From positions 310,001 to 374,000 of the forward strand of contig NZ_LR130575.1 of NCBI RefSeq assembly GCF_900625025.1: a DNA stretch of 64,000 bases, given 5' to 3'. Positions 1,941 to 50,622 of the stretch are shown piece by piece. The notes under the pieces were generated by a model. The model worked only from the letters and a program-made list of their open reading frames with translations. It was not told the origin of the DNA and searched no databases. This stretch comes from Lachnoclostridium sp. Marseille-P6806. GTDB lineage: Bacteria; Bacillota; Clostridia; Lachnospirales; Lachnospiraceae. The position numbers were made by a program, and so were the translations under genes. Each line of letters starts with the position of its first letter. The stretch's first letter is position 1.

Positions 1941-1985
1941 GCGCGTTCTTCGCTGGGGAACGCTTCGGCATGGAGGATTATTATG
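1941..1985 (+). repeat. RBS-linked intercistronic repeat, copy before ispH
   Basis: CGCTTCGGCATGGAGGATTA at 1961-1980 ends two bases before the ispH ATG and contains its Shine-Dalgarno. The 5' arm differs from the full-length copies. Here GCGTTC (1943-1948) can pair with GAACGC (1958-1963), giving a different hairpin in the same place. Confidence 0.75.
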
Positions 1986-2849
1986 AAAAAACCGCATTAT
2001 CAGGTGATCACGGCCGAGTCGGCAGGGTTCTGCTTCGGCGTGCAGAAGGCGGTGGATGCGGTCTGCAAGGAAATTGCCCGCGGAGAGAAAATTCACACCT
2101 ACGGCCCGATTATTCACAACGAAAGAGTGGTGTCCGATTTTGAAAAAAAGGGCGTCCGCGTTGTGGAAACGCCGGAGGAAATCGACGGACTCACAGGGGG
2201 AACGCTTGTGATCCGGTCGCATGGGGTTTCCAAGGAGCGTTTTGAACAGATACAGAGCAGCAGAGTGCGCTGCATCGATGCAACCTGCCCCTTTGTCAAG
2301 CGGATTCACCGTATTGTGGAGGAGGAGAGCGCAAAGGGGGCGCAGATCGTCATTATAGGAAACGCGGGACATCCGGAGGTCGAGGGAATCATGGGATGGT
2401 CCTCCACGCCGGCGGCTGTCATCGGGAAAGCGGAGGAGGCGGAAAGCTACCGCGGGGATCCGGAAAGACCAGTGTGCGTTGTTTCGCAGACGACGTTTCA
2501 GGTCGAAAAATTCAATGAACTTATTGCTATTTTGCAGAAACGACGTTACAATATGAGTATTGTCAATACCATCTGTAATGCGACGCGGGAGCGTCAGGAA
2601 GAGGCCCGCAGGATCGCGAAGATCGCAGATGTAATGATCGTTATAGGTGGGAGGACAAGTTCCAATTCTGCAAAGCTGTATGAGATTTGCAGAAAGGAAT
2701 GCCCGAACACTTTTTTCATACAGACGGTAGAAGACCTTGCTCTGGAACTGACCGGAGAGGAAAAGGTGATTGGCATTACCGCAGGGGCATCGACCCCAAA
2801 AAATATCATTGAGGAGGTTCAAAATCATGTCCGAGATGGAAAATTTTGA
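1983..2849 (+). CDS. ispH: 4-hydroxy-3-methylbut-2-enyl diphosphate reductase
   Basis: A 288-residue IspH (LytB), the last enzyme of the MEP isoprenoid pathway. It reduces HMBPP to IPP and DMAPP with a [4Fe-4S] cluster. The three expected cluster cysteines are visible: Cys17 (AGFCFGV), Cys102 (DATCPFV) and Cys198 (NTICNAT). The HGV, GHPEV and TTFQ motifs are also present. The start is fixed by GGAGG at 1972-1976 inside a repeat copy. The last 23 bases overlap rpsA, which starts at 2827 in another frame. In many Clostridia these two proteins are fused, but here they are separate and overlapping. Confidence 0.95.
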   Translation: MKKPHYQVITAESAGFCFGVQKAVDAVCKEIARGEKIHTYGPIIHNERVVSDFEKKGVRVVETPEEIDGLTGGTLVIRSHGVSKERFEQIQSSRVRCIDATCPFVKRIHRIVEEESAKGAQIVIIGNAGHPEVEGIMGWSSTPAAVIGKAEEAESYRGDPERPVCVVSQTTFQVEKFNELIAILQKRRYNMSIVNTICNATRERQEEARRIAKIADVMIVIGGRTSSNSAKLYEICRKECPNTFFIQTVEDLALELTGEEKVIGITAGASTPKNIIEEVQNHVRDGKF

Positions 2850-3975
2850 ACAGATGCTGAATGAGTCATTCAGGACAATTCGCAACGGAGAGGTCGTAGA
2901 AGGCAAGATTATCGACGTCAAGCCGGAAGAGGCCGTACTGAACATCAATTACAAGTCCGACGGTATTCTTACGCGCAGCGAATATAGCACCGACCATTCG
3001 CTTGACCTGACAACCAAGCTGAATGTCGGGGATTCTCTCGAGGTCAAGATCATCAAGGTCAATGACGGTGACGGGCAGGTTCTTCTGTCCTACCGGAGAC
3101 TGGCGGCCGACCGCGGCAACAAGCGCATCGAGGAGGCCTACAACAGCAAGGAAGTGCTCACGGCGAAAGTCGAGCAGGTGCTTTCCGGCGGCCTGAGCGT
3201 CAGCGTGGACGGCGTCCGCGTATTCATTCCGGCGTCTCTTGTTTCCGATACCTATGAGAAAGATCTCACAAAGTATCAGGATCAGGATATTCAGTTTGTG
3301 ATCACCGAGTACAATCCGCACAGACGCAGATACATCGGCGACCGCAAGCAGCTTCTGCTTGCAGAGAGAGCGGAGCTTCAGAAGAAGCTCTTTGCGACGA
3401 TTCAGCCCGGCGATGTCGTCGAGGGCACGGTCAAGAACATCACTGATTTCGGTGCGTTCGTTGATCTGGGTGGCGCCGACGGCCTGCTTCATATCTCCGA
3501 GATGAGCTGGGGCCGTGTCGAGAATCCGAAGAAGGTCTTCAAGGTCGGCGAGAAGCTGAGAGTTCTGATCAAGGATATTCAGGGCACGAAGATCGCGCTG
3601 TCCCTCAAGTTTCCCGATGAGAATCCGTGGGCGGGCGCCGCAGAGAAGTATGCGGCGGGCAATGTTGTGACCGGAAGAGTGGCGAGAATGACCGATTTCG
3701 GCGCGTTCATCGAGCTGGAGCCTGGTATCGATGCCCTGCTTCATGTCTCTCAAATCGCGAGAGAGCATATCGAGAAGCCCTCGGATGTGCTTCGCACCGG
3801 CGACGAGGTCACGGCGAAGATCGTGGAATTCAACGAGGCCGAGAACAAGATCAGCCTTTCTGTCAAAGCGCTGCTTCAGGACGAGGAGCGCCGCAGCAGA
3901 AGAAATGATATGGATGCGGATGTTGTTTCGGTCGACGTCGAGGCGGCGATTGCGGCGCAGAGCGACGAAAAATAA
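2827..3975 (+). CDS. rpsA: 30S ribosomal protein S1-like, four S1 domains
   Basis: A 382-residue protein with four S1/OB RNA-binding repeats, at about residues 16-85, 103-165, 187-257 and 272-340. The last two carry the classic VEGTVKNITDFGAFVDLG and ALLHVSQIA signatures. It probably helps ribosomes engage mRNA. Four repeats is the short Gram-positive form, against six in E. coli. The start ATG 2827 has GAGGAGG at 2812-2818 and lies inside the ispH 3' end. An internal ATG at 2836 is an alternative. The C-terminus is acidic. A strong terminator follows at 4005-4039. Confidence 0.92.
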   Translation: MSEMENFEQMLNESFRTIRNGEVVEGKIIDVKPEEAVLNINYKSDGILTRSEYSTDHSLDLTTKLNVGDSLEVKIIKVNDGDGQVLLSYRRLAADRGNKRIEEAYNSKEVLTAKVEQVLSGGLSVSVDGVRVFIPASLVSDTYEKDLTKYQDQDIQFVITEYNPHRRRYIGDRKQLLLAERAELQKKLFATIQPGDVVEGTVKNITDFGAFVDLGGADGLLHISEMSWGRVENPKKVFKVGEKLRVLIKDIQGTKIALSLKFPDENPWAGAAEKYAAGNVVTGRVARMTDFGAFIELEPGIDALLHVSQIAREHIEKPSDVLRTGDEVTAKIVEFNEAENKISLSVKALLQDEERRSRRNDMDADVVSVDVEAAIAAQSDEK

Positions 3976-4004
3976 TATTTGCACAGTCATTGATTCGTAT
4001 GTTG

Positions 4005-4039
4005 AAAAGGACCCTGCCCCTGCGGCAAGGTCCTTTTTT
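4005..4039 (+). terminator. rho-independent terminator after rpsA, possibly bidirectional
   Basis: GGACCCTGCC, a five-base loop and GGCAAGGTCC form a ten-pair stem with one mismatch, followed by TTTTTT. The left side is preceded by AAAA, so it could also serve the convergent gene at 4065-5183. Confidence 0.85.
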
Positions 4040-4064
4040 GAAGCTGTCCGGAGCTTTTGAGCCT

Positions 4065-5183
4065 TTACCGGCAGCCGTCGATGATATGACGGATGGCGTA
4101 GGCGGCATATTCGGACAGAATGCGGCGGCTTGTCTTGACCTCCGGCGTGAGCTCGAAGAAGAGGGCCGCGCTACGATAATCCTTTTTATAGAACGGCGTC
4201 CGGAAGAGATCCCATTCCGGGAGAAAAGCTCCGGTTTTCCGTGTATAGCAGTTGTCAGGCCGGGCCGGAAACCGGTGCGTCCGGTCGGCGTAGACAGCGA
4301 CGGATTTATGCAGAGCCTGATCCTGCTCCGGGAAGTAGTAGTAATCGTGATAATCGGCGTAAAAATATTTCAGCTCTCCGGAAAAGAGAGGAATCTTGAC
4401 AATTCCCTCCGTTCCGTCTCCGCCCGCCTCCGCCTTGAAAAAGCAGGCGTCCCGGGAGCCGAATACCGGTCTGGGAACGGGAGTCCGGAAACGGAAGCGC
4501 AGGATGACCTCGTCCCGGGATTCTCCGAGATAATCGGTGTACGAGGAGGCCTCCGCGCGATAGACGACCGGGATCTCCTCCGGCAGCGCATCATAGGACA
4601 GCATGGGGATCAGCCTCATAACACCGCGGAGATCCGCCTCGTTGTGTGCAAGAATCGCCTCGAGGAACTGCGGGTTTCGGTCTTTCAGCCAGCTGCTGTG
4701 CATGGCGGCAATATCCCGGCCGCTGGTGCTTTCGGTGCGCCCGGTGCCGAGAAACGCCTCGGCGGTCTGCTGCTTCCCGTCGGTCAGACCGAGAAGATTG
4801 CGGAAGCGCGCTGCAGTCCGGTAGATATCGACGGAGCGCATCGCCGTGAAAGGATCCGGCATGCCGCAGCGCAGAGCGTGCTCCCGCAGGAAAGGCAGGT
4901 CAAATTTCTGACCGTTGTAGTGGACGAGCGTCCGCCTGTCTGCTGCAAGAGAACAGAATCCGGATAGGAGCAGAGGCTCCTCCTCCGGGGAATCCGCAAA
5001 AAACTGAACCAGTTCGCCGTTTTTTCCGTCGGAATGGAAGATGATGCAGCCGATCAGAAATACGGAGTGATTCCGTGCGCTGAGACCGGTCGTCTCAATA
5101 TCGAAAATCATGAGCTCCTCCGGAGAGCTGGAGACCGGGCGCAGATCCGGAACAGAATCGATGGTCTTGCGAATGGTGCGCAT
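4065..5183 (-). CDS. ribonuclease H-like (YprB-type) exonuclease domain protein
   Basis: A 372-residue protein whose first half carries an RNase H-fold 3'-5' exonuclease domain. LMIFDIETTGL supplies the first two acidic residues, VHYNGQKFDLPFL supplies ExoII, and HNEADLRGV supplies the C-terminal acidic motif. This matches the YprB/COG3359 family, predicted to be a DEDD-type nuclease. The C-terminal 150 residues have no function I recognise. GAGGT upstream of ATG 5183 serves as Shine-Dalgarno. The gene is monocistronic, converges on rpsA and diverges from rnfC. Its substrate cannot be told from sequence. Confidence 0.75.
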   Translation of the reverse strand: MRTIRKTIDSVPDLRPVSSSPEELMIFDIETTGLSARNHSVFLIGCIIFHSDGKNGELVQFFADSPEEEPLLLSGFCSLAADRRTLVHYNGQKFDLPFLREHALRCGMPDPFTAMRSVDIYRTAARFRNLLGLTDGKQQTAEAFLGTGRTESTSGRDIAAMHSSWLKDRNPQFLEAILAHNEADLRGVMRLIPMLSYDALPEEIPVVYRAEASSYTDYLGESRDEVILRFRFRTPVPRPVFGSRDACFFKAEAGGDGTEGIVKIPLFSGELKYFYADYHDYYYFPEQDQALHKSVAVYADRTHRFPARPDNCYTRKTGAFLPEWDLFRTPFYKKDYRSAALFFELTPEVKTSRRILSEYAAYAIRHIIDGCR

Positions 5184-5343
5184 AGCTTACCTCATTTCGT
5201 GGTGTTGTTTCATTTCTTCGTGCTGTTTGTTTTGCAGCATGGTTTTATGATGCTGTGCTTACGAAATACATATTTCAATTCATTTTAACATATCCGTGAC
5301 AGAGACGGCGCGCGATATATCGGTACAAAACCGTCGGCCGGTA

Positions 5344-5352
5344 TGATACAAT
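5344..5352 (+). promoter_or_regulatory. possible extended -10 promoter for rnfC
   Basis: TGATACAAT matches an extended -10 element, with no clear -35 upstream. It is the best candidate in the 258-base divergent gap 5184-5441. The rest of that gap is AT-rich leader DNA in which I see no gene. Confidence 0.4.
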
Positions 5353-5441
5353 ATGGAGCGCGGACCGGCAGTTTTTTGCCGTGCATGCCGCAGCTTGCGC
5401 GGGGCCTGAGACAGACGGCGCCGCGGACGATGAGGACGACT

Positions 5442-6791
5442 ATGGCGATCGGAACCTTTCGCGGAGGAATTCATCCCTATGACGGCAAGGAGCTGTCCCG
5501 GCACACCAGAATCCGGACGGTGGTGCCGCACAGCGATATTGTCGTGTTTCCTCTGAAACAGCATATGGGACGGCCCGCGGTTCCGGTGGTGGCACCCGGT
5601 GATCCGGTGCTCACCGGGCAGAGGATCGCCAAGGCGGACGGCGAATTTTCGGCGGATCTTCACGCCTCCGTATCCGGGGTCGTCACGGCGATCCGGGACT
5701 TTCACGTCGCGGGGGGAGGAACGGAGCGCAGCATCATCATCCGCAACGACGGGCGCTTCAGCGAGATTCCCTATCCGGAGCCGCGCCGCTTCGAGGAGCT
5801 GACGGACGCCGTCATTATCCGCGCGGTAAAGCAGGCCGGAATTGTCGGCATGGGCGGAGCGGGACTTCCCTCCCATATCAAGCTCTCTCCCGAGCATCCG
5901 GAGCAGATCGACTATGTGATCGCCAACTGCGTGGAATGCGAGCCGTATATGACCTCCGATTACCGGCGTATGGTCGAGAATCCCGGCAAGCTCATCAACG
6001 GCCTGCGGATTGTGCTTAAGGTATTCCCGCGGGCGAGAGGGATCCTTGCGATCGACGAGCAGCTCCGGGATGTGATTCGGGAGCTCCGCAGCATTACCCG
6101 GGATGATCCGCGGATTTATGTAAAGCGGGTTCAGACCAAGTATCCGCAGGGCTCCGAGCGGCAGCTGATCTATGCGGTCACCGGGCGCACGCTGAACGGA
6201 AAAATGCTGCCCTCCGACATCGGCTGCATCGTTCATAATGTGGATACGCTGGTGGCGGTTAATCAGGCGGTCATGCTGTATGAGCCTCTCCTCACGAGAC
6301 TGATCACCGTATCGGGGGACTGCGTCGCGAAGCCGGGGAATTTCCGCGTCCGCATCGGCATGAGCTACGACGAGCTGATCGAGAGGGCGGGCGGCTTTGT
6401 GCGGGAGCCGGCGCTGATTCTGGACGGAGGAACCATGACGGGGCGGCGCATCAGAGATCTTCATGTGCCGGTCACGAAAATGAGCTCACAGATCGTGGCG
6501 CTGTCAAGAGACCGGGCAGAGGTGATGCGGGAGACCGCCTGCAGCCGCTGCGCCAGATGCGTCGAGGCCTGCCCGAATCATCTGGTCCCGATCCAGCTGC
6601 TGCGCGATGCGGAGCGTCAGAATGAGGATGCGTTCATCACGCACAACGGGCTGGAATGCTGTCAGTGCCAGAGCTGCAGCTACATCTGTCCCTCCAAGCT
6701 TCCGCTGTCCCTGCGGATCACGGAGATGAGAGAGAGCATTGTTTCCCGGCCGGAAAAGGCGGGAGATTACAGCAGGAGATTGTTCGGATGA
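5442..6791 (+). CDS. rnfC: Rnf electron transport complex subunit C
   Basis: A 449-residue RnfC, the NADH- and ferredoxin-side peripheral subunit of the ion-pumping Rnf complex. It has the N-terminal GTFRGGIHP motif, the nucleotide/flavin-binding GMGGAGLPSHIKL loop, and two ferredoxin-type CxxCxxCxxxCP clusters near the C-terminus (CSRCARCVEACP and CCQCQSCSYICP). ATG 5442 is chosen because the family starts here and TGAGGA lies just upstream. A longer open frame to 5343 lacks homology. The gene overlaps rnfD by ATGA. The other subunits (G, E, A, B) that normally follow are absent, because the operon runs into thrC. Confidence 0.9.
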   Translation: MAIGTFRGGIHPYDGKELSRHTRIRTVVPHSDIVVFPLKQHMGRPAVPVVAPGDPVLTGQRIAKADGEFSADLHASVSGVVTAIRDFHVAGGGTERSIIIRNDGRFSEIPYPEPRRFEELTDAVIIRAVKQAGIVGMGGAGLPSHIKLSPEHPEQIDYVIANCVECEPYMTSDYRRMVENPGKLINGLRIVLKVFPRARGILAIDEQLRDVIRELRSITRDDPRIYVKRVQTKYPQGSERQLIYAVTGRTLNGKMLPSDIGCIVHNVDTLVAVNQAVMLYEPLLTRLITVSGDCVAKPGNFRVRIGMSYDELIERAGGFVREPALILDGGTMTGRRIRDLHVPVTKMSSQIVALSRDRAEVMRETACSRCARCVEACPNHLVPIQLLRDAERQNEDAFITHNGLECCQCQSCSYICPSKLPLSLRITEMRESIVSRPEKAGDYSRRLFG

Positions 6792-7912: not shown

Positions 7913-7933
7913 CAAACGAATGTGAGGAAAGCG

Positions 7934-9421: not shown

Positions 9422-9430
9422 CCCGTTTTC

Positions 9431-9474
9431 GGAACGCTTATCGCACAAGGTTCTTTGGCATGGAGGCTGCCATG
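9431..9474 (+). repeat. RBS-linked intercistronic repeat, copy after thrC
   Basis: TCGCACAAGG (9441-9450) followed by TTCTTTGGCATGGAGG (9451-9466) matches both halves of the repeat with a few changes. It supplies the Shine-Dalgarno for ATG 9472. Confidence 0.65.
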
Positions 9475-9819: not shown

Positions 9820-9823
9820 TTTC

Positions 9824-11666: not shown

Positions 11667-11670
11667 ATCG

Positions 11671-11862
11671 TTGCCTGGGGTGTTCGATAACTCCTGTGTT
11701 TTTGAACCTACATTACTTTAAACGGGATTTCAATATTGCTGCCGCGGCTGTCACGCCTTCGGCCTCCGGGCTATGGGAGAGGAAGACAAAAACGACGCTG
11801 TGATAACCCACCTGGCAGAACTGCTAGGAGTCAAGAGCAGGAAGCGGCACATCCGGGCTTTG
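11671..11862 (+). ncRNA. ssrS: 6S RNA (SsrS) candidate
   Basis: About 190 bases with the layout of 6S RNA, which mimics an open promoter and binds sigma-70 RNA polymerase. GCCTGGGGTGT (11673-11683) pairs with ACATCCGGGC (11849-11858), with one bulged G, as the closing stem. The stretch TTTTGAACCTACATTACTTT near the 5' side and the GCAGAACTGC / AGAGCAGGAAGCGGC segments near the 3' side resemble clostridial 6S RNAs as I remember them. A dedicated promoter ends just upstream. There is no convincing protein in the interval. The assignment rests on recalled sequence and the closing stem, not on a covariance search. Confidence 0.7.
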
Positions 11863-11884
11863 CAGTCATTTTTATACATAAAAA

Positions 11885-12227: not shown

Positions 12228-13277
12228 ATGGCAGATTTAAGTGGGCTTAAGGAACGTGTCCGGGAGATCCGGAACGAGATACTGAGCAGCTCGGGCGCTC
12301 TGGAATCCTCCAGAGCGGCCTATGAGAAGCGCAAGGAATTTCTGGATTCCAAAAAGGGAAAGATCGGACAGCTGATGAAAGAGATGCGCGAGGTGCCGGC
12401 GGAGCAGCGCGCGGAATACGGTCAGATGGTCAACGAGCTCAAGCAGTGGGCAGCGCAGCGCTTTGAAGAGATCGACCGCAGCATGAAAGAAAAGGAGCTG
12501 GCGATCCGATGCAGGGCAGAGGCAATCGACGTCACGGAGCCGGCGGTCAAAGCGCTTCCGGGACGTCTCCATCCCGTCACGCAGGTGAGGGAGGAGCTGA
12601 TCGATGTGTTCGCCTCGATGGGCTTTGAGGTCTATGAAGGGCGCGAGATCGAGACGGAATACTATAATTTCACCGCGCTGAACACGCCGCAGGATCATCC
12701 GGCGAGAGACATGCAGGACACCTTTTATCTTTCTCCTGAATTTCTTCTCCGGACGCAGACCTCTGCGGGGCAGATTCATGTCATGGAGACAAAGAGGCCG
12801 CCGATCAAGATCCTGTCCCCCGGCCGCGTTTTCCGCTCGGACGACGACGCCACGCATTCCCCCATGTTTCATCAGATGGAGGGACTGGTCGTCGACCGGC
12901 ATATCACGCTCGGAGATCTCAAGGGGATGCTCGATACCTTTGTGAAGAAAATGTACGGAGAGGACGCGGTGACGCGGCTTCGGCCGTCGTATTTCCCGTT
13001 CACGGAACCCTCCGTCGAGGTAGATGTGAGCTGCTTTGCCTGCGGCGGAAAGGGCTGCGCTCTGTGCAAGGGAACCGGCTGGATCGAGGTGCTGGGCGCC
13101 GGAATTGTCAACCGCAGAGTGCTGGAAAACTGCGGCATCGATCCGGAGGAGTACAGCGGACTGGCGTTCGGCATCGGTCTTGAGCGAATCGCGATGCTCA
13201 AATACGGAATCGGAAACATCAAGCTTCTGTTTGAGTCGGACCTGCAGGTGCTGAATCAGATCGGAGATCAGGAATGA
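12228..13277 (+). CDS. pheS: phenylalanyl-tRNA synthetase alpha subunit
   Basis: A 349-residue class II synthetase catalytic subunit. It has an N-terminal coiled-coil arm for tRNA, motif 2 around [20 protein letters not shown] and motif 3 [16 protein letters not shown]. The Cys-rich insertion [17 protein letters not shown] is usual for bacterial PheS. It forms an alpha2-beta2 tetramer with PheT and charges tRNA-Phe. ATG 12228 follows GGAAAGGA. The T-box leader immediately upstream explains its regulation by tRNA-Phe charging. Confidence 0.97.
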
Positions 13278-13299
13278 GAGATCAGGCTGCGAAAAAGCC

Positions 13300-13338
13300 G
13301 CTTCGGATGGAAAGCTGCTTCGGATGGAGGGAAAAATG
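13300..13338 (+). repeat. variant RBS-linked repeat with internal duplication, before pheT
   Basis: GCTTCGGATGGA occurs twice (13300-13311 and 13317-13328). The second is followed by GGGAAAA and ATG 13336. It is the 3' half of the dispersed repeat with one C lost. Confidence 0.5.
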
Positions 13339-18311: not shown

Positions 18312-19608
18312 GCGAGGCCATATCCGCAAAAAAATCCGGATAGCTTATGGCGACGCAGCGTTCGTTGTCGAGCGTTGTTTCGCCCTCCGCAATGAGCGAG
18401 GCGACGGCAAAGCTCATGGCGATACGGTGGTCGTCCCGGCAGCGGATCAGAGCGCCGGAGAGGGGACGTCCGCCCTCGATGATCATGCCGTCGGCGGCGG
18501 CTTCGGCCCGGCAGCCCATGGAAAGAAGATTTTCCGTGACGGAGGCGATGCGGTCCGATTCCTTGACACGGAGCTCGGCTGCGTCGTGGATGACGGTTTG
18601 CCCCTCCGCGGCTGCGGCCGCCACGGCAATGACCGGAAGCTCGTCGATGAGCGTCGGGATGAGCTCTCCCTCAATCACTGTCCCATGGAGCGCGCTGTGC
18701 CGGACCAGAAGATCGCAGACCGGTTCGCCTCCGCTGTTTCTTTCATTCAGCGCGGTGATATCGCCGCCCATGCGGCGGAGTACTTCGAGGATGCCGCTGC
18801 GGGTCGGGTTCACGCCGATATTTTTAAGAAGCAGCTCGGAGCCGGGAACGAGGAGGGCCGCCGTGATGAAATAGGCGGCGGAGGAAATGTCTCCGGGAAC
18901 CTCTATATCCCGGGTGGAGAGCCGGTCCGCCGGCTCGATGGTGATGTAAAAGCCATCCTCCCGGCGCTCGGTCGTCACCGAAGCGCCGAGCGCCTGCAGC
19001 ATACGCTCGGAGTGATCGCGGGACAGTGCGGGCTCTATGACCGTGGAGGCGCCGTCCGCGTAGAGACCGGCGCAGAGCACGGCGGACTTGACCTGCGCCG
19101 AGGCGACGGAAGAGCGCCATGTGATTCCGTGCAGGGGCGAGCCGGAGATGCGGAGCGGGGCGCAGTTTTCCTGTCTGAGGCCGACAATTTCCGCGCCCAT
19201 CTGCGTCAGCGGCTCGATCACGCGGCGCATGGGCCTGCGGCAGATCGACTCGTCTCCGGAGAGAATGGTGGTAAACGGCTGGGCTGCGAGGACACCGCAG
19301 AGGATACGGGTGGTTGTCCCGCTGTTTCCGGTAAAGAGCTCCTGCGGATCGGAGGAGGGAAGCAGACCGTGCAGCCCTCGACCGAAGACTGTGACCTCGC
19401 CGGAGCCTCTGTCTGCCTCGATCGCGATGCCGAGCCTCCGGAAGCAGTCGATGGTCGAGAGGCAGTCCGCTCCGCTCAGAAAATTCATGATGCGCGTCCT
19501 GCCGTCTGCGAGCGCGCCGAAGATGACCGCGCGGTGCGAGACGGATTTGTCTCCGGGGACGGACAGCCCGCCCCGCAGAGGAGAAGCAGCTTTCTGAAGT
19601 CTTATCAT
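18280..19608 (-). CDS. aroA: 3-phosphoshikimate 1-carboxyvinyltransferase (EPSP synthase)
   Basis: A 442-residue enzyme of the shikimate pathway joining PEP to shikimate-3-phosphate. It has the family motifs [10 protein letters not shown] near the N-terminus, [10 protein letters not shown], and [10 protein letters not shown] with [11 protein letters not shown] near the C-terminus. The reading frame is open upstream through the repeat element (which would read PRRECFGM), so the start is uncertain among ATGs at 19620, 19614 and 19608. I chose 19608 because the other repeat-linked genes start at that distance and GGTGAT sits just upstream. It follows tyrA in one operon and overlaps queA convergently. 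Confidence 0.93.
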
Positions 19609-19652
19609 AATCATCACCATGCCGAAGCACTCCCGGCGAGGCACGCGCCGCA
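19606..19652 (-). repeat. RBS-linked intercistronic repeat, copy before aroA
   Basis: Read on the minus strand it runs GGCGCGTGCCTCGCC, then GGGAGTGCTTCGGCATGG, then TGATGATT before the ATG. It is the only copy on the minus strand and is oriented with its gene. GGTGAT replaces GGAGGA as Shine-Dalgarno. Confidence 0.8.
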
Positions 19653-19726
19653 GGCACCCCGCGCCGAGGTTTTGCGGCTGCGGTGGGGGTTGTTTGGCTT
19701 CGGGACAAACAGCCGTGTGAAATGTA

Positions 19727-36418: not shown

Positions 36419-36787
36419 ATGGAAGAGGAGACGAAAGATACGTTTCCCGGCGCAGACCATAAGGCTGGTGAAGACCGGAAAACGGACGGTGCCGCCACAG
36501 AATATACCGAATATGAAAAAATTCCGCCGGAGGTGCTCACCGTCGACCGGCTGATCGGCGCGCGTTTCGATGTCGGGCAGAGAGAGGCGCAGAAACCGGA
36601 AAGTGAAAACGGCGGACCGATCGTCAATCCGCTTCCGGAGCCGGTCCGGATCTCCCGCGGCCGCATGGAGTTTGACCATCCGGATGCGGCGGGGGCCGGT
36701 GCGCCGTCCGGGAACGGTGCGCCGGTCACGGAACCTGCGTTTACATTCGATGTGGATATCGAAGACGGTGACGATTTCGATATCTGA
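36419..36787 (+). CDS. small acidic protein upstream of ftsK, unknown
   Basis: A 122-residue, strongly acidic protein with no membrane segment. It has a KIPPEVLTVDRLIGARFDVG core flanked by low-complexity tails, ending in DVDIEDGDDFDI. I recognise no family. The start ATG 36419 has AGGAGGA 10 bases upstream, which supports expression. Third-position GC bias fits a real gene. It precedes ftsK with only the repeat element between them, so the two are probably co-transcribed. It may be disordered. Confidence 0.6.
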   Translation: MEEETKDTFPGADHKAGEDRKTDGAATEYTEYEKIPPEVLTVDRLIGARFDVGQREAQKPESENGGPIVNPLPEPVRISRGRMEFDHPDAAGAGAPSGNGAPVTEPAFTFDVDIEDGDDFDI

Positions 36788-36799
36788 TAAGGAGTGCCT

Positions 36800-36846
36800 T
36801 TCGGCGCGTGCCTCGCATAAGGCGCTTCGGCATGGGGATTATTATG
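36800..36846 (+). repeat. RBS-linked intercistronic repeat, copy before ftsK
   Basis: Full-length copy: GGCGCGTGCCTCGCA, TAAGGC, GCTTCGGCATGGGGATT, then ATTATG. The ATG inside GGCATGG lies in frame with ftsK, which lengthens its apparent open frame. Confidence 0.85.
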
Positions 36847-40149: not shown

Positions 40150-40175
40150 ATCAGACGGACAGGAGAGCGACCGGT

Positions 40176-41024: not shown

Positions 41025-41027
41025 GCT

Positions 41028-42556: not shown

Positions 42557-43438
42557 ATGTACAGAATTCTGGAAAAGGAAAAGCTGTCGGCCAACATTTA
42601 TCGTATGCTTCTGGAGGCCCCCCGCGTCGCAGAGAACGCGCTGCCCGGTCAGTTTCTGATCGTCCGCGTGGATGAGAACGGTGAGCGCATTCCGCTTACC
42701 ATCTGCGATTATGATTCCGAGAAGGGAGCGGTCGAGATTGTATTTCAGCCCATCGGCAGCGACACCCTCCGCATGAGCGAGCTGGAGCCGGGAGACAGCT
42801 TTCACGATGTTGTCGGCCCGCTCGGCAGGCCGTCCGAGCTCACGGAAATCGATCCGGAGAAGCTGAAAAAAATGAAAATCCTCTTTGTCGCCGGCGGCGT
42901 CGGCACGGCGCCTGTCTACCCTCAGCTGAAATGGCTGAAGGAGCACGGTGTTCTGGCCGATGCCATTGAGGGTGCAAAGTCAAAGGATATTGTCATCATG
43001 GAGGAGAAAATGAGTTCGGTGGCGGGAAATCTGTATATCACCACCGACGACGGCTCCTACGGCAGAAGCGGCATGGTGACCAAGGTGATTCAGGATCTGT
43101 ACGACGAGGGGAAGCGCTATGATCTGTGCGTCGCCATCGGTCCGATGATCATGATGAAATTTGTCTGCAAGCTGACGGAGCAGCTCGGAATCCCCACCAC
43201 GGTCAGCATGAACCCGATTATGGTGGACGGAACGGGCATGTGCGGCGCCTGCCGTCTTATGGTGGACGGAGAGGTGAAGTTCGCCTGCGTTGACGGCCCG
43301 GAATTTGACGGCTTCAAGGTTGACTTCGATCAGGCCATGCAGCGAATGAAGCTGTACAAATCCGAAGAGGGACGGGCCATGCTCGAGGCCGAAGAGGGAG
43401 ATACGCATCACGGCGGCTGCGGCATCTGCACCGCCTGA
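42557..43438 (+). CDS. nfnA: ferredoxin:NADP+ oxidoreductase subunit alpha (NfnA-like)
   Basis: A 293-residue FAD/NAD-binding protein of the PyrK/HydG (sulfide dehydrogenase-like) family. It has the flavin domain LPGQFLIVRVDE and RIPLTICDYD, an NAD domain around VAGGVGTAPVYPQLKWL, and a C-terminal [2Fe-2S] site with three cysteines (GMCGACRLM, FACVDG). Three cysteines plus an aspartate is the arrangement known for NfnA. It is followed by an NfnB-like gene, so the pair probably bifurcates electrons between NADPH, NADH and ferredoxin. GGAGGAGAGG precedes ATG 42557. A longer frame to 42506 has no homology. Confidence 0.85.
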   Translation: MYRILEKEKLSANIYRMLLEAPRVAENALPGQFLIVRVDENGERIPLTICDYDSEKGAVEIVFQPIGSDTLRMSELEPGDSFHDVVGPLGRPSELTEIDPEKLKKMKILFVAGGVGTAPVYPQLKWLKEHGVLADAIEGAKSKDIVIMEEKMSSVAGNLYITTDDGSYGRSGMVTKVIQDLYDEGKRYDLCVAIGPMIMMKFVCKLTEQLGIPTTVSMNPIMVDGTGMCGACRLMVDGEVKFACVDGPEFDGFKVDFDQAMQRMKLYKSEEGRAMLEAEEGDTHHGGCGICTA

Positions 43439-43514
43439 CGGCAGCGGCTTTAGCGGGCGATTTGTGCCTTGATGCAGACGCCCTTGACCGCAGCCGCAGA
43501 ATCCGCGCAGGCGA

Positions 43515-43565
43515 TTTTGCGGCGCGTGCCTCATATAAAACGCTTCGGCATGGAGGATTCATATG
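43515..43565 (+). repeat. RBS-linked intercistronic repeat, copy before nfnB
   Basis: TTTTGCGGCGCGTGCCTC, then ATATAAAA, then CGCTTCGGCATGGAGGATTC and ATATG. The outer arms TGCC/GGCA are kept while the inner stem is lost. Confidence 0.85.
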
Positions 43566-44954: not shown

Positions 44955-44965
44955 CGGGCAGGCGG

Positions 44966-45024
44966 TTTTACGGCGCGTGCCTCGCACAGGGTGGCACAGG
45001 GTGCTTCGGCATGGAGGATTTATG
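44966..45024 (+). repeat. RBS-linked intercistronic repeat with tandem duplication, copy before the zinc-ribbon gene
   Basis: TTTTACGGCGCGTGCCTC, then GCACAGGGTG twice (44984-44993 and 44994-45003), then CTTCGGCATGGAGGATTT and ATG 45022. The duplication enlarges the hairpin loop and leaves both arms intact. Confidence 0.85.
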
Positions 45025-45729
45025 TGGTGTCCCAAATGTCGCAATGAGTATCGGGATGGAATCGTGAAATGTGCCGACTGCGGCTGCGATCTCGTGGAAT
45101 CTCTCGAGGAATATGACCGCGCCGCGCAGGTGCAGGAGCCGGAGAGGGAGGAACGGGAGGAGGCCGATCCTGTATCCGGAACGGAAACTTCACCCGAAGC
45201 TGCCTCTTCGGAGAAGCAGGCTGCGCGGACTTTTGCCTATCACAACAGCATGGAGCGGGCAGAGGAAAACAAATCCTCCGCCTATGCTCTGCTCAGCGTC
45301 GGGAGCCTCGGCTTTCTCATGGTGCTTCTCCTCTATTTTGACCATTTGCCGTTTTTCCGTGTGAGCGGCTGGAACCGCTATCTCGTCTGCGGCGTCATGG
45401 GCGCGATGTTCATTTTGTTCCTTGTCATGGGTGTCGTTTCGATGCGCTCGGTGCGAGGACTTTGCAGACAGGCGGAATCCGAGCGGTCGCTCGAGGACGA
45501 GATCACACGCTGGTGCCGCGATAACCTTGACGCCGCAGGGATTGACACCGCCCTCACGGAAGAACTGCAGGAGCTCCCCGAGGAGCAGAAATATTTTGCA
45601 AGAACCGCGTATATGAAGCGCTTCATCAATGAAAAATTTGTGGGCCTCGAGGAGAGCTTCATCGAATATTTTATCGACGGCTATTATGCGTCGCTGTTCG
45701 GAGAGACGGAAGATACCCAGGAGGAATAA
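45022..45729 (+). CDS. zinc-ribbon membrane protein, unknown function
   Basis: A 235-residue protein starting MWCPKCRNEYRDGIVKCADCGCDL, a zinc ribbon. An acidic linker is followed by two membrane segments (about residues 92-117 and 124-147), and a cytosolic C-terminal domain of about 85 acidic, helical residues. I recognise no specific family. Small ribbon-plus-TM proteins of this kind are common in Clostridia and lack assigned roles. ATG 45022 is set by the repeat's GGAGG. An in-frame extension to 44923 overlaps nfnB and is rejected. Confidence 0.75.
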   Translation: MWCPKCRNEYRDGIVKCADCGCDLVESLEEYDRAAQVQEPEREEREEADPVSGTETSPEAASSEKQAARTFAYHNSMERAEENKSSAYALLSVGSLGFLMVLLLYFDHLPFFRVSGWNRYLVCGVMGAMFILFLVMGVVSMRSVRGLCRQAESERSLEDEITRWCRDNLDAAGIDTALTEELQELPEEQKYFARTAYMKRFINEKFVGLEESFIEYFIDGYYASLFGETEDTQEE

Positions 45730-45753
45730 CCCCGGCGGGAGGATGAGACGGAT

Positions 45754-45940
45754 TTGAATGTTGACGTGATCGCCGTGGGCAGGCTCCGCGAGCGTTTTTA
45801 TCAGGAGGCGGAACGGATACGGAAGTTCTACCGGAACGGCAGCGTTCGTATCCGTTCCGCATCAGCTGATGCGCGTAATTCTTCTGGAACAGATTTACCG
45901 CTCATTCCGGATCCTCCGGGGCGAGCCTTACCATAAATAA
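45754..45940 (+). pseudogene. rlmH: rlmH remnant with internal deletion
   Basis: The frame from TTG 45754 reads [25 protein letters not shown], the N-terminus of the 23S rRNA pseudouridine-1915 N3-methyltransferase RlmH. In the frame two bases on, about 45845-45940 reads [20 protein letters not shown] and then [10 protein letters not shown] with a stop, the exact family C-terminus. The roughly 100 central residues with the SAM-binding trefoil knot glycines are missing. RlmH is usually about 159 residues. GGGAGGATGAG still precedes the start. It is either a real internal deletion or an assembly error at this point. Confidence 0.85.
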
Positions 45941-45973
45941 CGGGACGCACGCGGTGCGGAGGATTGACAGCAG

Positions 45974-47005
45974 GTGACAGAAAAACTGGTTTTGCCGATA
46001 TCGGCGCAGGAAGATATTTTTGGCAGCCGGGATGCTTATCTCCGCCGTCTGGAGCGTGAGCTCGGCGTGACGGTGGTTCTCCGGGACGGCTTTGTGAGCG
46101 TGAGCGGAGAGGAGACGGGCGTGCGCACGGCGCTTCGCATCATGGAACAGCTCGCGGGGATCTCGATGAACGGATCGGATATTGACGAACAGAAAATCGA
46201 TTATGCGCTCGAGATGAAGAGCGAAGAGCGGGAAGAAAATGTGCTGGAGCGGATCGATCGCACGGTCATCTGCCGGACGGTGAGCGGCAGGCCGGTAAAG
46301 CCCAAGACGCTCGGACAGGAAGAGTATATCGAAGCGATCCGGAATCATATGATCACCTTTGCCGGCGGTCCGGCCGGAACCGGGAAAACCTTTCTTGCCA
46401 TGGCCATGGCGATCACGGCCTTTCAGGCAGGAGAGGTGCAGCGCATCATCCTGACCCGGCCCGCCATTGAGGCGGGAGAGAAGCTGGGCTTTCTCCCCGG
46501 CGACCTGCAGCAGAAAATCGATCCCTACCTGCGTCCCCTCTACGACGCGCTGTTTCAGATTATGGGGGCGGAGAATTTTCAGCGCAATCAGGAAAAGGGA
46601 CTGATCGAGGTCGCGCCTCTTGCCTATATGCGCGGCCGGACGCTGGACAACGCCTATGTGATTCTGGACGAGGCGCAGAACACGACGCCGGAGCAGATGA
46701 AAATGTTCCTCACCCGTCTGGGCTTCGGATCCAAGGCGATCATCACCGGCGATCCCACGCAGAAAGATCTTTCGCCGTCTGTCCCGTCGGGCTTTGAGAT
46801 CGCGGAGCGCGTCCTGAAGAACGTCGAGGGGATCCGCTTCTGCACGCTCACTGCGCGGGATGTGGTCCGTCATCCTCTGGTGCAGAAAATCGTCAAGGCC
46901 TATGAGGACTACGACAGCCGCGAGGTAAGGAGCAGACAGCATGAAAAAGCCCGTCATGAAAAAGCTTGTCATGAATACGGAAATAGACGTCGGTCAGCGC
47001 TTTGA
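45974..47005 (+). CDS. PhoH-like ATPase
   Basis: A 343-residue protein starting at GTG 45974. The N-terminal 100 residues hold a KH-like stretch. The ATPase domain has Walker A FAGGPAGTGKTFLA, the RPAIEAGEKLGFLPGD block and Walker B NAYVILDEAQNTTPEQMKMFLTRLG, all typical of PhoH/PhoL. In many bacteria phoH sits just before ybeY and is linked to RNA metabolism, as here. The C-terminus (residues after RSRQHEK) is generated by a short tandem repeat and overlaps ybeY by 65 bases. Confidence 0.92.
   Translation: MTEKLVLPISAQEDIFGSRDAYLRRLERELGVTVVLRDGFVSVSGEETGVRTALRIMEQLAGISMNGSDIDEQKIDYALEMKSEEREENVLERIDRTVICRTVSGRPVKPKTLGQEEYIEAIRNHMITFAGGPAGTGKTFLAMAMAITAFQAGEVQRIILTRPAIEAGEKLGFLPGDLQQKIDPYLRPLYDALFQIMGAENFQRNQEKGLIEVAPLAYMRGRTLDNAYVILDEAQNTTPEQMKMFLTRLGFGSKAIITGDPTQKDLSPSVPSGFEIAERVLKNVEGIRFCTLTARDVVRHPLVQKIVKAYEDYDSREVRSRQHEKARHEKACHEYGNRRRSAL
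46941..46970 (+). repeat. 15-bp tandem repeat at the ybeY start
   Basis: ATGAAAAAGCCCGTC (46941-46955) is followed by ATGAAAAAGCTTGTC (46956-46970) and then ATGAATACGG, giving three in-frame candidate starts for ybeY and a repetitive PhoH tail. Confidence 0.85.
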
Positions 47006-47489
47006 TTTTTCTCTGAAGATCGTTGCGCGGCAGGTGATCCGGGAAGCGCTCAGAGAGGAGAGCTGCCCCTTTGACTGCGAGATTTCTCTTGTCGTCACGG
47101 GGGATGAGACGATTCGGGAATATAACCGGACATTCCGGGGGATAGACCGGGAGACGGACGTTCTGTCCTTTCCGGCGCTGTGCTTTGACGCCCCGGCTGA
47201 TTTTGACAGTGCGGCGGAGGTCGCGGCAGACTGTATCGATCCGGACAACGGCTGCGTCGTTCTGGGGGATATCGTCGTCAATGCGTGCCGCGTGCGCTCA
47301 CAGGCGCAGGAGTACGGACACAGCGAAAAACGTGAATTTGCTTTTCTTGTGGCGCACAGTATGATGCACCTGTTCGGCTACGATCACGAGACGCCGGAGG
47401 AGGCGGAACGGATGGAGCAGCGTCAGGAGGCGGTTCTCGCTTCGCTCGGCATCCGGCGCGGGGAGGCTCCGGCAGCTCCCGGCTGCTGA
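46941..47489 (+). CDS. ybeY: endoribonuclease YbeY
   Basis: A 182-residue metal-dependent endoribonuclease for rRNA maturation and ribosome quality control. The zinc site HSMMHLFGYDH, with the H-x3-H-x5-H pattern, is at the C-terminal third. YNRTFRGIDRETDVLSFP and LGDIVVNACRV are family blocks. ATG 46941 has AAGGAG nine to fourteen bases upstream. ATGs at 46956 and 46971 are also possible. It overlaps phoH by 65 bases and is followed by a flippase-like gene after a short repeat copy. Confidence 0.93.
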   Translation: MKKPVMKKLVMNTEIDVGQRFDFSLKIVARQVIREALREESCPFDCEISLVVTGDETIREYNRTFRGIDRETDVLSFPALCFDAPADFDSAAEVAADCIDPDNGCVVLGDIVVNACRVRSQAQEYGHSEKREFAFLVAHSMMHLFGYDHETPEEAERMEQRQEAVLASLGIRRGEAPAAPGC

Positions 47490-47517
47490 AAACGCTTCAT
47501 TATGGAGGATTGAGATG
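47490..47517 (+). repeat. short RBS-linked repeat copy before the flippase-like gene
   Basis: AACGCTTCATTATGGAGGAT, then TGAG, then ATG 47515. Only the 3' half of the repeat is present, starting right at the ybeY stop. Confidence 0.55.
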
Positions 47518-49155
47518 ATGATAAAGAGGACAATGCGCGGCGCCCGGAATGGCATGGCTCTCTGCACAGCCGTATTCTTTGCTGCTGCGGCGTCATTCTG
47601 CCTTGTCCGCATTCCTCTCTATTCTCTGCTCGGTCCGGAGGGAACCGCCTATATCATCCCCGGCATGGAGCTGTTTGCTCTTTTTTATGCCGCGTTTGTA
47701 AGCACCGGTGCGCTCACGGCCCGTCGTATGGTAAGAACACGGCGTCTCCGCGGACGTTTTTCCTCCATTCCCCGCGTGCTGAAAACAGTGCGCTTTCCCA
47801 CGCTGATCGCGGGACTTGTCCTGACGCTTCTGTGTCTTGCCGGCTGCCGTGTGCTGGCCGCCGCGGCAGGGGCAAATTTTGATCTCTACCTGCTGTTTGT
47901 CGCGCTTTCTCCCGCCTTTCTGTTTCTTTCCCTGACGGGTATACTTCGGGGCTATGAGGAGGCCATGCTTTCCTTTCGCGTTTCGGTTATCTGCACCATC
48001 GCGGAGGCGGCGCTCCGCATCGCGCTGATGCTTCTGTTTGGAAAGCTCTGCTTCGATTACGGGACAAAAGCGGCGGCGCTTCTTCGGAATCCCTCGGTGG
48101 CGCCGCTCTACGGAGCCGCGGGCGCGGCGGCGGGACTCTCTGCGGCGTCGCTCCTCACGCTCCTCCTGTGGCTCTTCTGCCACCGCATCACCGGACAGCT
48201 CATCCGGGGGTATCTCGCGGAGCATGAGGACACTCGAACGGAGCAGGAGAGCGACCGGAGCATCCGCCGGGCCTACTGGTCCTCGTTTCTTCTCACGTCC
48301 GCGGCGCTTCTGTTCCTTGCGGCTCCGGTGCTTGCCGACTATCGGCTGAGCTTTTATTTTGCGCAGATCAGCGATCCGGAGACGGGCGCTCTCTGGGCCT
48401 CCTATTACAGCAAAACCCTCTCCATTGTATTTGCTGCCGTCTTTATTCTGCTGATCCCTTTTGTTACCTATCCGGCAAAGCTCGGAGGACAGATGACGGA
48501 CCAGAACCTGCGCGAATTTCGCAGAGGCTTCGGCATGGTGATGCGGCTTCTCAGCTATGTGCTGATGCCGGTATCTTTCTTTTTCATTGCCGCGGCCCGC
48601 ATTCTGACGGCCGTTGGCTACGGAATTGACGACAGCGCGGCAGAGGTCACGCTGGAATGGAGCGGGCCTGCCGTTCTTTTTTTCGGAACTGCTCTTTTTC
48701 TCGTCATGCTATGCCTCTCGACCCATGATATCCGCTGCATCCTGATTGCCGTCATTCCCTCCTTTGTGCTTCAGACAGGCCTATTCATTCTCCTCGCCCG
48801 CGCTGGGATTTCGCCGGAGCTGGCGGGCGCGGTTTCTTTTCTTGTATTCAGCGTTCTCCTCTGCCTCCTCCTGATGGTGCAGCTCCGGAGCGGAACTCTG
48901 CGCAGGAACCGCTGGGCGAGAGAGGCGGTGCTGGCCGCGATCTGTGCCGTGCTGGCCGCTATTCCGGTATTTCTTGCCGGGGACTATCTCTATGAGCATA
49001 TCGGAGCGGCGCCGGCCCTCCTCGTGCTGGCCGCCGTTTATCTGGCCGCCTATGTTCTTTTGACGATCTTTCTGCGGGTCTGCGATCTGCGCGAGCTGCA
49101 TCGGATCCCCGGCGGGGATATCATCGTGATGCTTTTCTATCTGTTCGGTAGATAG
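47515..49155 (+). CDS. polysaccharide/lipid flippase-like membrane protein (MATE/MVF superfamily)
   Basis: A 546-residue protein with about 13-14 membrane segments spread over its whole length and an N-terminal Arg-rich cytosolic start. The pattern (TM1 with polar GMALCTAVF, a repeated SLTGILRGYEEAML-like loop after TM4) resembles the SpoVB/MurJ-type oligosaccharidyl-lipid flippases rather than transporters with nucleotide-binding sites. The likely substrate is a lipid-linked sugar, but this is inference from family resemblance. ATG 47515 or 47518 follows GGAGGA. It ends the run phoH-ybeY-flippase. Confidence 0.7.
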   Translation: MMIKRTMRGARNGMALCTAVFFAAAASFCLVRIPLYSLLGPEGTAYIIPGMELFALFYAAFVSTGALTARRMVRTRRLRGRFSSIPRVLKTVRFPTLIAGLVLTLLCLAGCRVLAAAAGANFDLYLLFVALSPAFLFLSLTGILRGYEEAMLSFRVSVICTIAEAALRIALMLLFGKLCFDYGTKAAALLRNPSVAPLYGAAGAAAGLSAASLLTLLLWLFCHRITGQLIRGYLAEHEDTRTEQESDRSIRRAYWSSFLLTSAALLFLAAPVLADYRLSFYFAQISDPETGALWASYYSKTLSIVFAAVFILLIPFVTYPAKLGGQMTDQNLREFRRGFGMVMRLLSYVLMPVSFFFIAAARILTAVGYGIDDSAAEVTLEWSGPAVLFFGTALFLVMLCLSTHDIRCILIAVIPSFVLQTGLFILLARAGISPELAGAVSFLVFSVLLCLLLMVQLRSGTLRRNRWAREAVLAAICAVLAAIPVFLAGDYLYEHIGAAPALLVLAAVYLAAYVLLTIFLRVCDLRELHRIPGGDIIVMLFYLFGR

Positions 49156-49176
49156 CCGCCGCGGAGGTTAGTTAGT

Positions 49177-49288
49177 GTGAAAAATCACGTTGATGCGATG
49201 ATTTGCTCCGTGAGCGAAACGTGCTGTTACGTAGTGAGAAGGCATGAGCCGCAGAGCGGCTCGGCAGCCTGCGCGCCGGCGCAGGGTG
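49177..49288 (+). other. cluster of hairpins in the gap before the second HI0933-type gene
   Basis: In the 181-base gap 49156-49336 there are GTGA-AAAA-TCAC (49177-49188), GAGCCGC-AGA-GCGGCTC (49246-49262) and CCTGCGC-GCCG-GCGCAGG (49268-49285), followed by the repeat hairpin. None has a U-run. A structured leader or processing region is possible. I see no gene here. Confidence 0.5.
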
Positions 49289-49289
49289 C

Positions 49290-49339
49290 TTTTACGGCGC
49301 GTGCCTCGCACAAAGTGCTTCGGCATGGGGATTGCTATG
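49290..49339 (+). repeat. RBS-linked intercistronic repeat, archetype copy
   Basis: It forms the cleanest hairpin. CGTGCC (49300-49305) pairs with GGCATG (49322-49327). Inner stem GCAC/GTGC (49308-49311 and 49315-49318) has loop AAA and an internal loop TC/TTC. GGGG of the Shine-Dalgarno starts at the last base of the hairpin. Confidence 0.9.
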
Positions 49340-50596
49340 ACCAAGTATGATACAGAGCCTGTGATCGCTGTGATCGGCGGGGGAGCGGCGGGGTGCATGG
49401 CGGCGGCAAAGGCCGCGGAATGCCCCGGTGTCCGGGTAATTGTCTTTGACCGCAATGAGCAGCCCTGCCGCAAAATCAGCGCCTCCGGGAACGGACGCTG
49501 CAATATCTCCAACGAGTATTTCCCCGAGGACTGTTACTATTCCTCCGGATGCTTTGACCGGGAAAAACGGCTGCAGCACTTCCCGCCGCAGAAACTTCTT
49601 TCCTTTTTTGTCTCCGAGGGAGTCTATTTTCACTCGCGGAACGGATATCTCTATCCCCGGACGGATCAGGCGGCCACGATTTCCTCGGCGCTTCTTCGGA
49701 TACTGCGGGACCGGGGCGTCGTGCTCCGGTCCTCCTGCGGGGTCAGCGGGCTTACGCGGGAGGCGGCGGGCGGCTTTCTGTTGCGGATGCAGAGCGGGGA
49801 GACCGTGTCTGCGGACCGTGTCGTTCTGGCCTCGGGGGGAGCGGCCGCTCCGCAGCTCGGCGGGACGCCGGACGGCTATGAATTCAGCCGGGCACTGGGA
49901 CATCGCATCATTTCGCCGATTCCTGCGCTTACCTCTCTTGTCATCAGAGAATCCACGAAAGCGGCCTCCGGCGTCCGCGCCTTTGCTGCCGTCACGCTGC
50001 TGGAGTCTTCGCAGAAGCCGCGTGTCCTCCGCCGGGAGGAGGGCGAGCTGCAGATCGGAAACGGCGTGTTCTCCGGGATTCCCGTCTTTCAGCTCAGCCG
50101 TCTCGCCGGGCGCGCTCTTGAGGAGGGAAGAAAAGCGGCGCTGTGCGTTGACTTTCTTCCTGAATTTGCGCCGGAGACGTGGGAAAGAGAACGCGCGCGG
50201 CGGCTCGTTCTCGCTGCAGAAAACCGGATGCTCCGCGAGCTCACGGACGGACTGGTTCACCCGAAAATATGCGCGCTCATCGCCGGGCACTGTGGACTTA
50301 CCGCAGAAAACAAGACCGGACGGCTCTCCGAAAAAACACTGCGGCAGTTTCTTGACAGACTTCGCGATGATCGCTATGAAATCACGGGAACCGGGAGCTT
50401 CCGCGAGGCGCAGGTCACGGCGGGAGGCGTCTGTCTGGAGGAGATCGGAGAGGATTTTTCGTCCCTTTGCTGCCCCGGCCTTTATCTGGCCGGAGAGCTG
50501 CTGGATGTGGACGGTATCTGCGGCGGCTACAATCTGACCTTTGCCATGTGCAGCGGCGCCGCCGCCGGTATGGCGGCCGCCGCTTCCCTCGGCTGA
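49337..50596 (+). CDS. NAD(P)/FAD-dependent oxidoreductase, HI0933/BaiN family
   Basis: A 419-residue flavoprotein with the complete N-terminal FAD loop VIAVIGGGAAGCMAAAKAA, the family signature KISASGNGRCNISNE, a middle insertion domain and the C-terminal GELLDVDGICGGYNLTFAMCSG. It is a paralog of the truncated gene at 1-1217. The substrate is unknown; one relative, BaiN, acts on bile acids, but that cannot be transferred from similarity alone. ATG 49337 follows the repeat's GGGG. A frame open to 49244 has no homology. The next gene starts 24 bases after its stop. Confidence 0.88.
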   Translation: MTKYDTEPVIAVIGGGAAGCMAAAKAAECPGVRVIVFDRNEQPCRKISASGNGRCNISNEYFPEDCYYSSGCFDREKRLQHFPPQKLLSFFVSEGVYFHSRNGYLYPRTDQAATISSALLRILRDRGVVLRSSCGVSGLTREAAGGFLLRMQSGETVSADRVVLASGGAAAPQLGGTPDGYEFSRALGHRIISPIPALTSLVIRESTKAASGVRAFAAVTLLESSQKPRVLRREEGELQIGNGVFSGIPVFQLSRLAGRALEEGRKAALCVDFLPEFAPETWERERARRLVLAAENRMLRELTDGLVHPKICALIAGHCGLTAENKTGRLSEKTLRQFLDRLRDDRYEITGTGSFREAQVTAGGVCLEEIGEDFSSLCCPGLYLAGELLDVDGICGGYNLTFAMCSGAAAGMAAAASLG

Positions 50597-50622
50597 ACGC
50601 TTCGGCATGGAGGAGTCATATG
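50591..50622 (+). repeat. short RBS-linked repeat copy before the COG2509-type gene
   Basis: ACGCTTCGGCATGGAGGA (50597-50614), then GTCAT and ATG 50620. The copy begins at the stop of the preceding gene and lacks the 5' arm. Confidence 0.75.

Follow-up and report, generated by a model that had tools for sequence, protein, structure and literature searches.

The BOX, RUP and SPRITE repeats of Streptococcus pneumoniae are small, hairpin-forming sequences that number 30-125 copies and show little evident connection with gene function (excerpt of PMC3049150), and IS608 inserts 3' of a tetranucleotide that is recognised by a guide within the transposon (excerpt of PMC5934647). Here we describe a family of structured DNA elements found in a 64,000-nucleotide stretch (hereafter the window) of contig C2 of Lachnoclostridium sp. 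Marseille-P6806, whose 3.13-Mb genome (draft, 96.7% complete) is called G000. Copies lie directly before start codons and provide a Shine-Dalgarno (SD) sequence to unrelated genes. We consider it probable, at roughly 68%, that these are small non-autonomous mobile elements that insert strand-specifically between an SD and its start codon and return an SD to the gene. The copies are small, non-coding, dispersed and, judging from orthologous loci that lack them, probably mobile; in that sense they resemble miniature inverted-repeat transposable elements or BOX.

The resemblance to BOX extends to modular build, seen here in the inner inserts. BOX, RUP and SPRITE, however, are enriched between convergent genes, whereas the present element stands before start codons in one orientation and supplies the SD; terminal inverted repeats and target duplications belong to BOX and RUP (all in the excerpt of PMC3049150). 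With the IS200/IS605 family and its non-autonomous derivatives the element shares end hairpins, internal base pairing and what appears to be insertion on one strand, 3' of a short motif that is retained on the left, but no Y1 transposase was found in G000, no left guide is present and the target spacing is variable (family features from the excerpt of PMC5934647). REP/BIME sequences with their TnpA-REP are likewise high-copy, palindromic, extragenic and gene-free; they measure 20-50 nucleotides (nt) and are mostly preceded by GTAG, whereas our element measures about 140 nt, has no fixed GTAG and comes with no RAYT found in G000 (REP features from the excerpt of PMC8266576). The TAACTGA repeats of marine Beggiatoaceae are also numerous, and most lie no more than several nt upstream of the start codons of unrelated, partly essential genes; they are short direct repeats in a setting where canonical ribosome-binding sites (RBS) are reportedly rare, whereas the element described here brings its own (repeat features from the excerpt of PMC4679880).

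The intact unit consists of four hairpins, P0 to P3, followed by the SD, about 6 nt and an ATG. Its left end reads GTGTGAAAAATCA and its right end GGCATGGAGGATT. P0 is the long left hairpin (GTGTGAAAAATCA...TGATTTTTCACAC); P1 is formed by GGCTATTTG, a loop with CCGAAGC, and CAAATAGCC, and its loop is complementary to the 7-10 nt that precede the right-hand SD; P2 is the third hairpin, and P3, the right one, runs into GGAGG or, at some right ends, GGTGAT, which presumably matches the 16S 3' end in a different register. At about 140 nt the unit could not accommodate a protein gene. Short forms in G000 span 141-144 nt, counted from the left end through the core, the conserved 3' segment GCTTCGGCATGGAGGATT; long forms of about 227 nt carry an additional module of about 85 nt within the tip of P0 or of P2, and one copy of 314 nt carries it in both, as if the module had been inserted into the element. 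Reduced forms, with only 23-59 nt separating left end and core, and sites with the core alone were also present. Copies can be stacked in tandem, the right end of one being the left flank of the next. The second structured module, with GAGCCGCAAAGCGGCTC-like and CCTGCGCGCCGGCGCAGG-like hairpins, was noted in the long copies L012, L013, L016, L025, L136 and L313 and at window positions 49190-49290. Two incomplete copies that lack a start codon at the usual position were seen as well, L300 (contig C81 of G139, a genome of the same order but a different family) and L308/L086 (G000, C4:44799); one stops after P1 and the other has no right end. A start-stop upstream open reading frame (ORF) at the left end (GTG TGA) was considered and dropped, as it is not kept in L117, L124 or other lineages.

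The preliminary description of this DNA had reported a two-part core before start codons. The repeat is real, and what had been described is only the 3' third of the larger element. Its 3' core GCTTCGGCATGGAGGATT was enriched, with 5 window sites at up to 3 mismatches against 0.11 in shuffled sequence, whereas the 5' core GGCGCGTGCCTCGCA alone stayed at chance level (6 window sites at 3 mismatches against 6.2 expected, not significant). Across G000 the 18-nt core gave 131 sites at up to 3 mismatches and its reversed control 3. A BLAST search with the 70 nt upstream of the core returned 45 matches (E <= 1), and 29 of the 30 loci fetched from them continue into the core, the exception being L086. 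Sites of the P1 pattern numbered 52 in G000 and 37 in G139, with 1 and 0 in the respective controls.

Position was analysed at 105 distinct core sites (up to 3 mismatches), those of the 131 that lie in the fetched G000 DNA. An ATG opening an ORF of at least 50 codons followed 87 of the 105, compared with 4 on the opposite strand, and in 50 of those 87 the ATG stood 6 nt after GGAGG. A looser pattern, counted with GTG and TTG accepted as starts and with chance coding matches included, preceded an ORF at 124 of 149 sites in G000 and 39 of 48 in G139; at random positions the figure was 26% (1401/5480). The bias in strand and start distance noticed in the window holds for the copies read genome-wide. 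Placement between co-directional genes, also claimed earlier, was found for 10 of 10 window copies as read from the ORF table, but a crude ORF test of 55 copies genome-wide gave 35 with a co-directional upstream neighbour, 17 with a divergent one and 3 with no neighbour. Cores without a start codon or ORF at the expected place were observed at L014, L019, L129, L133 and L162; these could point to a pseudogene, an alternative start codon or a copy whose gene has been lost.

The left flank of the element often carries what looks like an older SD. SD-like left flanks were found in 21 of 25 cases in G139 (0-1 in same-size windows further upstream), 15 of 23 at loci of other genomes (controls 0-3) and 14 of 50 in G000 (controls 0-4); these sets keep a few wrong left-end calls. 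The left end followed GGAGG at 3-4 nt in 13 of 17 cases in G139 and 11 of 15 in G000, the full range being 1-7 nt. Natural GGAGG-ATG distances in G000 peak at 5-6 (26/67), the corresponding G139 sample being only 6, so the shorter spacing at the left end fits an element inserted some 2 nt ahead of the start codon. A left end placed behind an older SD, together with a right end just before a start codon, suggests targeted insertion on the evidence of these junctions. The earlier proposal of a small mobile repeat tolerated only where it keeps an RBS comes close to the data; tolerance alone, however, is insufficient to explain copies that begin behind an older SD and end just before the start codon.

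We propose that the element would insert strand-specifically into the gap separating SD and start codon, that its right end would take over as the new SD so that the hit gene is still translated, and that the old SD would decay after this hand-over. Core-only sites would be remnants in which selection kept the SD while the hairpins were deleted. Pairing of the P1 loop with the core, either as an RNA pseudoknot or as an end-to-end contact in single-stranded DNA, would be needed for mobility or for a usable new SD.

This pairing leaves a clear mark in the alignments. Among 29 sequences from 9 genomes, two-sided changes occurred in 5 of the 7 base pairs of P1 and in 2 of the 7 between loop and core, and 93.8% of cells paired, compared with 87.3% after shuffling and 30-50% after sliding; the P2 stem covaries too. 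In 89 copies (51 from G000 and 26 from G139) loop and core were paired at 7 of 7 positions in 77, departures from Watson-Crick pairing including 25 G.T and 8 A.C cells. Of 27 hand-picked representatives, 184 of 189 loop-core cells paired (shuffles 165, with a maximum of 180 in 10,000), with 11 G.U, no A.C and 5 other non-pairs. Wobble counts in both sets favour pairing in the mRNA-sense strand. Because complementarity had helped to find some of the loops, the test was redone on matches aligned by R1, a covariance model that does not include loop-core pairing and was trained on ten G000 copies, every one outside the window. In 29 R1-aligned matches the mean loop-core complementary run was 8.2 nt, against 6.1 for re-dealt partners and a maximum of 7.0 in 2000 deals; the weakest rows were L341 (4) and L336 (5). 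Core and loop partners include GCTTCGG with CCGAAGC, GCTCCGG with CCGGAGC, GCTCGTC with GACGAGC, GCGTCTGCGG with CCGCAGACGC, and CGCTCAGAA with TTCTGAGCG. As judged from these alignments, the P1 loop is coevolving with the core. Conservation thus reaches beyond a generic SD, with P1, P2 and the loop-core pairing all covarying.

Comparison of orthologous loci revealed mostly empty sites. For the two genes compared, an R1 match before the orthologous gene was absent in 32 of 33 same-genus loci. Before the gltD-like orthologue (FNR-gltD-like operon, window 43439-43562), R1 matched in 0 of 18 same-genus loci; in G006, the closest relative, with a protein 83% identical, the gltD-like ATG is preceded only by TGACGCGGAGGAGTATGACA. 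For pyrB, R1 was applied to all 17 loci, and no match was obtained in 14 of 15 same-genus loci, nor in either of the two other-family loci (G139 and G043). The G000 core at up to 2 mismatches yielded 0-4 sites in each of 36 same-genus genomes. Given the empty sites at two genes and the few G000-type cores in the genus, the G000 type and its copies at the gltD-like gene and pyrB would be recent on the genus scale, or lost elsewhere.

Beyond the genus, G139 contains 47 cores at up to 1 mismatch. Its 22 distinct copies share a median identity of 92% (maximum 99%), while the flanks, at 27%, are unrelated, and several of its contigs start or stop within the element; these copies appear to have spread recently. 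In the order, R1 at E <= 1e-4 placed the element in 25 of 294 genomes (at least 90% complete) and 17 of 145 genera, scoring up to 13 candidates per genome, a number reached in 10 genomes. In a sample of 398 genomes of the phylum, with 9 candidates scored per genome under strict filters, R1 at E <= 1e-6 matched G000 alone. No match to a RAYT-like protein or the exact P1-core pattern was found in viral contigs, and none was found in plasmids. Three GenBank records from human faeces labelled Bacteriophage sp. contain the element (L355, L356 and L357; MT836788, MT838414 and MT837007); since the ORF behind one of these copies reads as enolase and none of the three looks viral by eye, the records are probably bacterial DNA. 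Among the open-licence PubMed Central articles listed, no report of the element was found.

Several observations weigh against the proposed insertion. At 18 of the 105 core sites there was no ATG plus 50-codon ORF; as read, these include 5 that lead into a tandem element, 2 that start with GTG or TTG instead and 1 chance match within coding sequence. Under the strict criterion, 36 of the 50 left flanks in G000 no longer resemble an SD. Some loop-core cells fit the other strand (8 A.C against 25 G.T in the 89 copies). Not every relative is empty: pyrB of G064 is preceded by an own-type core, GCTCCGGAATGGAGG, which R1 matches weakly (E 0.005); G064 also has a diverged copy before another ORF (L242:371-498, minus strand, E 2e-14) and a further copy interrupted by the locus end; and in G018 a diverged copy (L221:390-526, E 3e-5) lies directly before the FNR gene adjoining the gltD-like gene. 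A mobilising enzyme was not found when an IS200/REP-type transposase was looked for in G000, and no ORF-bearing copy was among 20 P1 sites that had no core listed and were fetched for this purpose; of these, 16 have a diverged core and a start, L298 runs off its contig, L303 is a chance coding match, and L300 and L308 are incomplete. No inverted repeat between the two element ends was seen by eye, target duplication was not demonstrated, the SD on both sides may belong to target or element, and the ends are placed only to within a few nt. Finally, core-only sites could represent a separate extended SD motif rather than remnants.

Translational riboswitches and other SD-adjacent pseudoknots show conserved, covarying pseudoknot-type pairing beside the SD, as does the element. 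One could accordingly read it as a cis-regulatory RNA in which the P1 loop and the 5' arm of P3 compete for the core, so that a pseudoknot (on) and a hairpin (off) jointly switch SD access for many genes and copies spread because this control is useful. Strong coevolution, conserved structure with compensatory changes beside the SD, a location typical of a translational control element and the mRNA-sense wobbles in both the 27 representatives and the 89 copies speak for this reading, and in G139 the P3 arm has a CCTCC for which the minimum-energy fold gives the right SD as partner and the centroid the left SD. However, the window genes are unrelated and 32 of the 33 loci lack the element, so no conserved regulon is seen; unlike translational riboswitches, the element has high copy number and no conserved gene association was seen. 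With core and loop withheld from a folding model, SD exposure rose in 6 and fell in 5 of 14 cases and rose in 7 and fell in 5 of 13, giving no consistent gain. In Rfam, eight loci yielded six matches at E <= 1, all far under the gathering score (best AS-pc01, 31.5 against 79 bits). On balance we regard regulation as an unlikely primary explanation. A further reading, that only a generic strong SD context is shared and the remainder is chance similarity, draws on the mild enrichment of CGGMATGGAGGA in many relatives too; it is refuted by hairpins far upstream of the SD that recur independently of the core and covary, and we give it practically no credence.

If the element is mobile, the question is what moves it. 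A transposase of the Y1 (HUH) class, either IS200/IS605-like or REP-like, that cleaves at the SD and is guided by an anti-SD in the right end would account for the strand specificity of insertion, for a target motif that remains on the left and recurs on the right, and for hairpins at both ends; the right side in G139 is IS608-like, with CCTCC at the foot of the right hairpin and GGAGG after it. PF01797 matches are present in G139, G043 and G146, and a RAYT-like gene occupies the same place in G139 and G043 (L207, L208), beside ftsY and small biotin-carrier-like genes (neighbours named by eye). But G000 has no PF01797 match, and a RAYT-like protein was found in 1 of 14 genomes searched (G005) and not in G000, while the full element was seen in 7 of these 14. 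Moreover, a left guide has no space because P0 begins at the left junction, the left end lies anywhere from 1 to 7 nt behind GGAGG, and CCTCC is missing in some lineages. Such a transposase thus seems doubtful, a little more so than regulation, and a REP/RAYT origin was not supported for G000, where neither PF01797 nor a RAYT-like protein was found. A self-removing intron-like element of group II or III type that restores the old SD in the transcript would explain why the left flank is an SD, and we take the left end GTGTG to resemble a group II intron 5' end. GTGTG, however, is not conserved across lineages, the stem being variable in L322, L327, L330 and G043, no domain-5-like hairpin was seen by eye, a right-end SD would be superfluous for an intron, and old SDs apparently decay in G000; this makes splicing very improbable.

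In the window, R1 (E <= 0.01) recovered ten of the eleven positions previously listed; the remaining one, 1235, is unsupported and contains only TTTATGGAGGAAATATG. All ten copies are oriented with their gene, including the one before aroA on the minus strand, and the ten genes are unrelated by Pfam, as had been stated: seven have matches (ispH, pheT, aroA, ftsK, a gltD-like oxidoreductase and two different FAD-dependent proteins) and three have none. The copy with the only recognisable left end in the window lies at 49175..49339 (+), beginning with GTGTGAAAAATCA at 49175 and containing a long-type inner insert, P3, a core at 49317 and a start at 49337 before an HI0933-like gene (E 1e-8 over 49262-49339); immediately before it, at 49163..49174 (+), the sequence reads as an older SD-like flank, GGAGGTTAGTTA. 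The strongest R1 matches are those before the gltD-like oxidoreductase (43454..43565, +, E 6e-18), with a P1 remnant, P2, P3, a core at 43542-43559 and a start at 43563, and before aroA (EPSP synthase; 19606..19715, -, E 2e-17), assigned by Pfam, where the sequence shows P1 with loop CCGAAGC, P2, P3 and a GGTGAT-type SD ahead of a start at 19608. The copy before ispH (Pfam LYTB; 1913..1985, +, E 4e-8) has the core GCTTCGGCATGGAGGATT at 1962-1979 and a start at 1983, and that before ftsK/spoIIIE (36753..36846, +, E 8e-8, Pfam) has P3, a core at 36824 and a start at 36844. P3 and core are also present at 44961..45026 (+; core 45003-45020, start 45022, E 6e-6 over 44983-45026), which was recognised as a direct repeat as well. 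Core-only copies are GCTTCATTATGGAGGATT at 47480..47517 (+; start 47515, E 1e-4) and GCTTCGGCATGGAGGAGT at 50551..50622 (+; start 50620, E 8e-7), the latter abutting the upstream stop codon and preceding a FAD-dependent protein. Two copies are weak: a diverged one at 9430..9474 (+; core 9452, start probably 9472, E 0.003) and one before pheT (Pfam tRNA_synthFbeta; 13224..13338, +, E 0.01), with the core-like GCTTCGGATGGAGG at 13317 and a start probably at 13336. Outside the window, genes behind copies include PyrB, GlmM and LepA, as read from protein sequence. The window also holds a 6S RNA gene (11669-11863, RF00013), its sole Rfam match above the gathering score.

A more specific form of the insertion proposal, which we put forward tentatively and with the odds somewhat against it, is a transposable element that uses the SD itself as landing site: it would recognise the SD by base pairing (in G139 through the internal anti-SD CCTCC), insert on the coding strand only, between SD and start codon, and carry its own terminal SD, making insertion seamless for the gene and keeping the next landing site for tandem insertion. 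If insertion between SD and start codon is correct, it would represent a bacterial mobile element with a safe-haven strategy aimed at translation initiation, placed between two essential signals where insertion should harm, and would explain how small elements occupy more than 100 sites, including those before ispH, pheT and ftsK, without apparent harm. The copies would then also provide, in each genome, a natural collection of dozens of genes with an exchanged 5' leader, useful for studying how upstream sequence affects translation, and the coevolving loop-core pairing makes the mechanism directly accessible to mutation.

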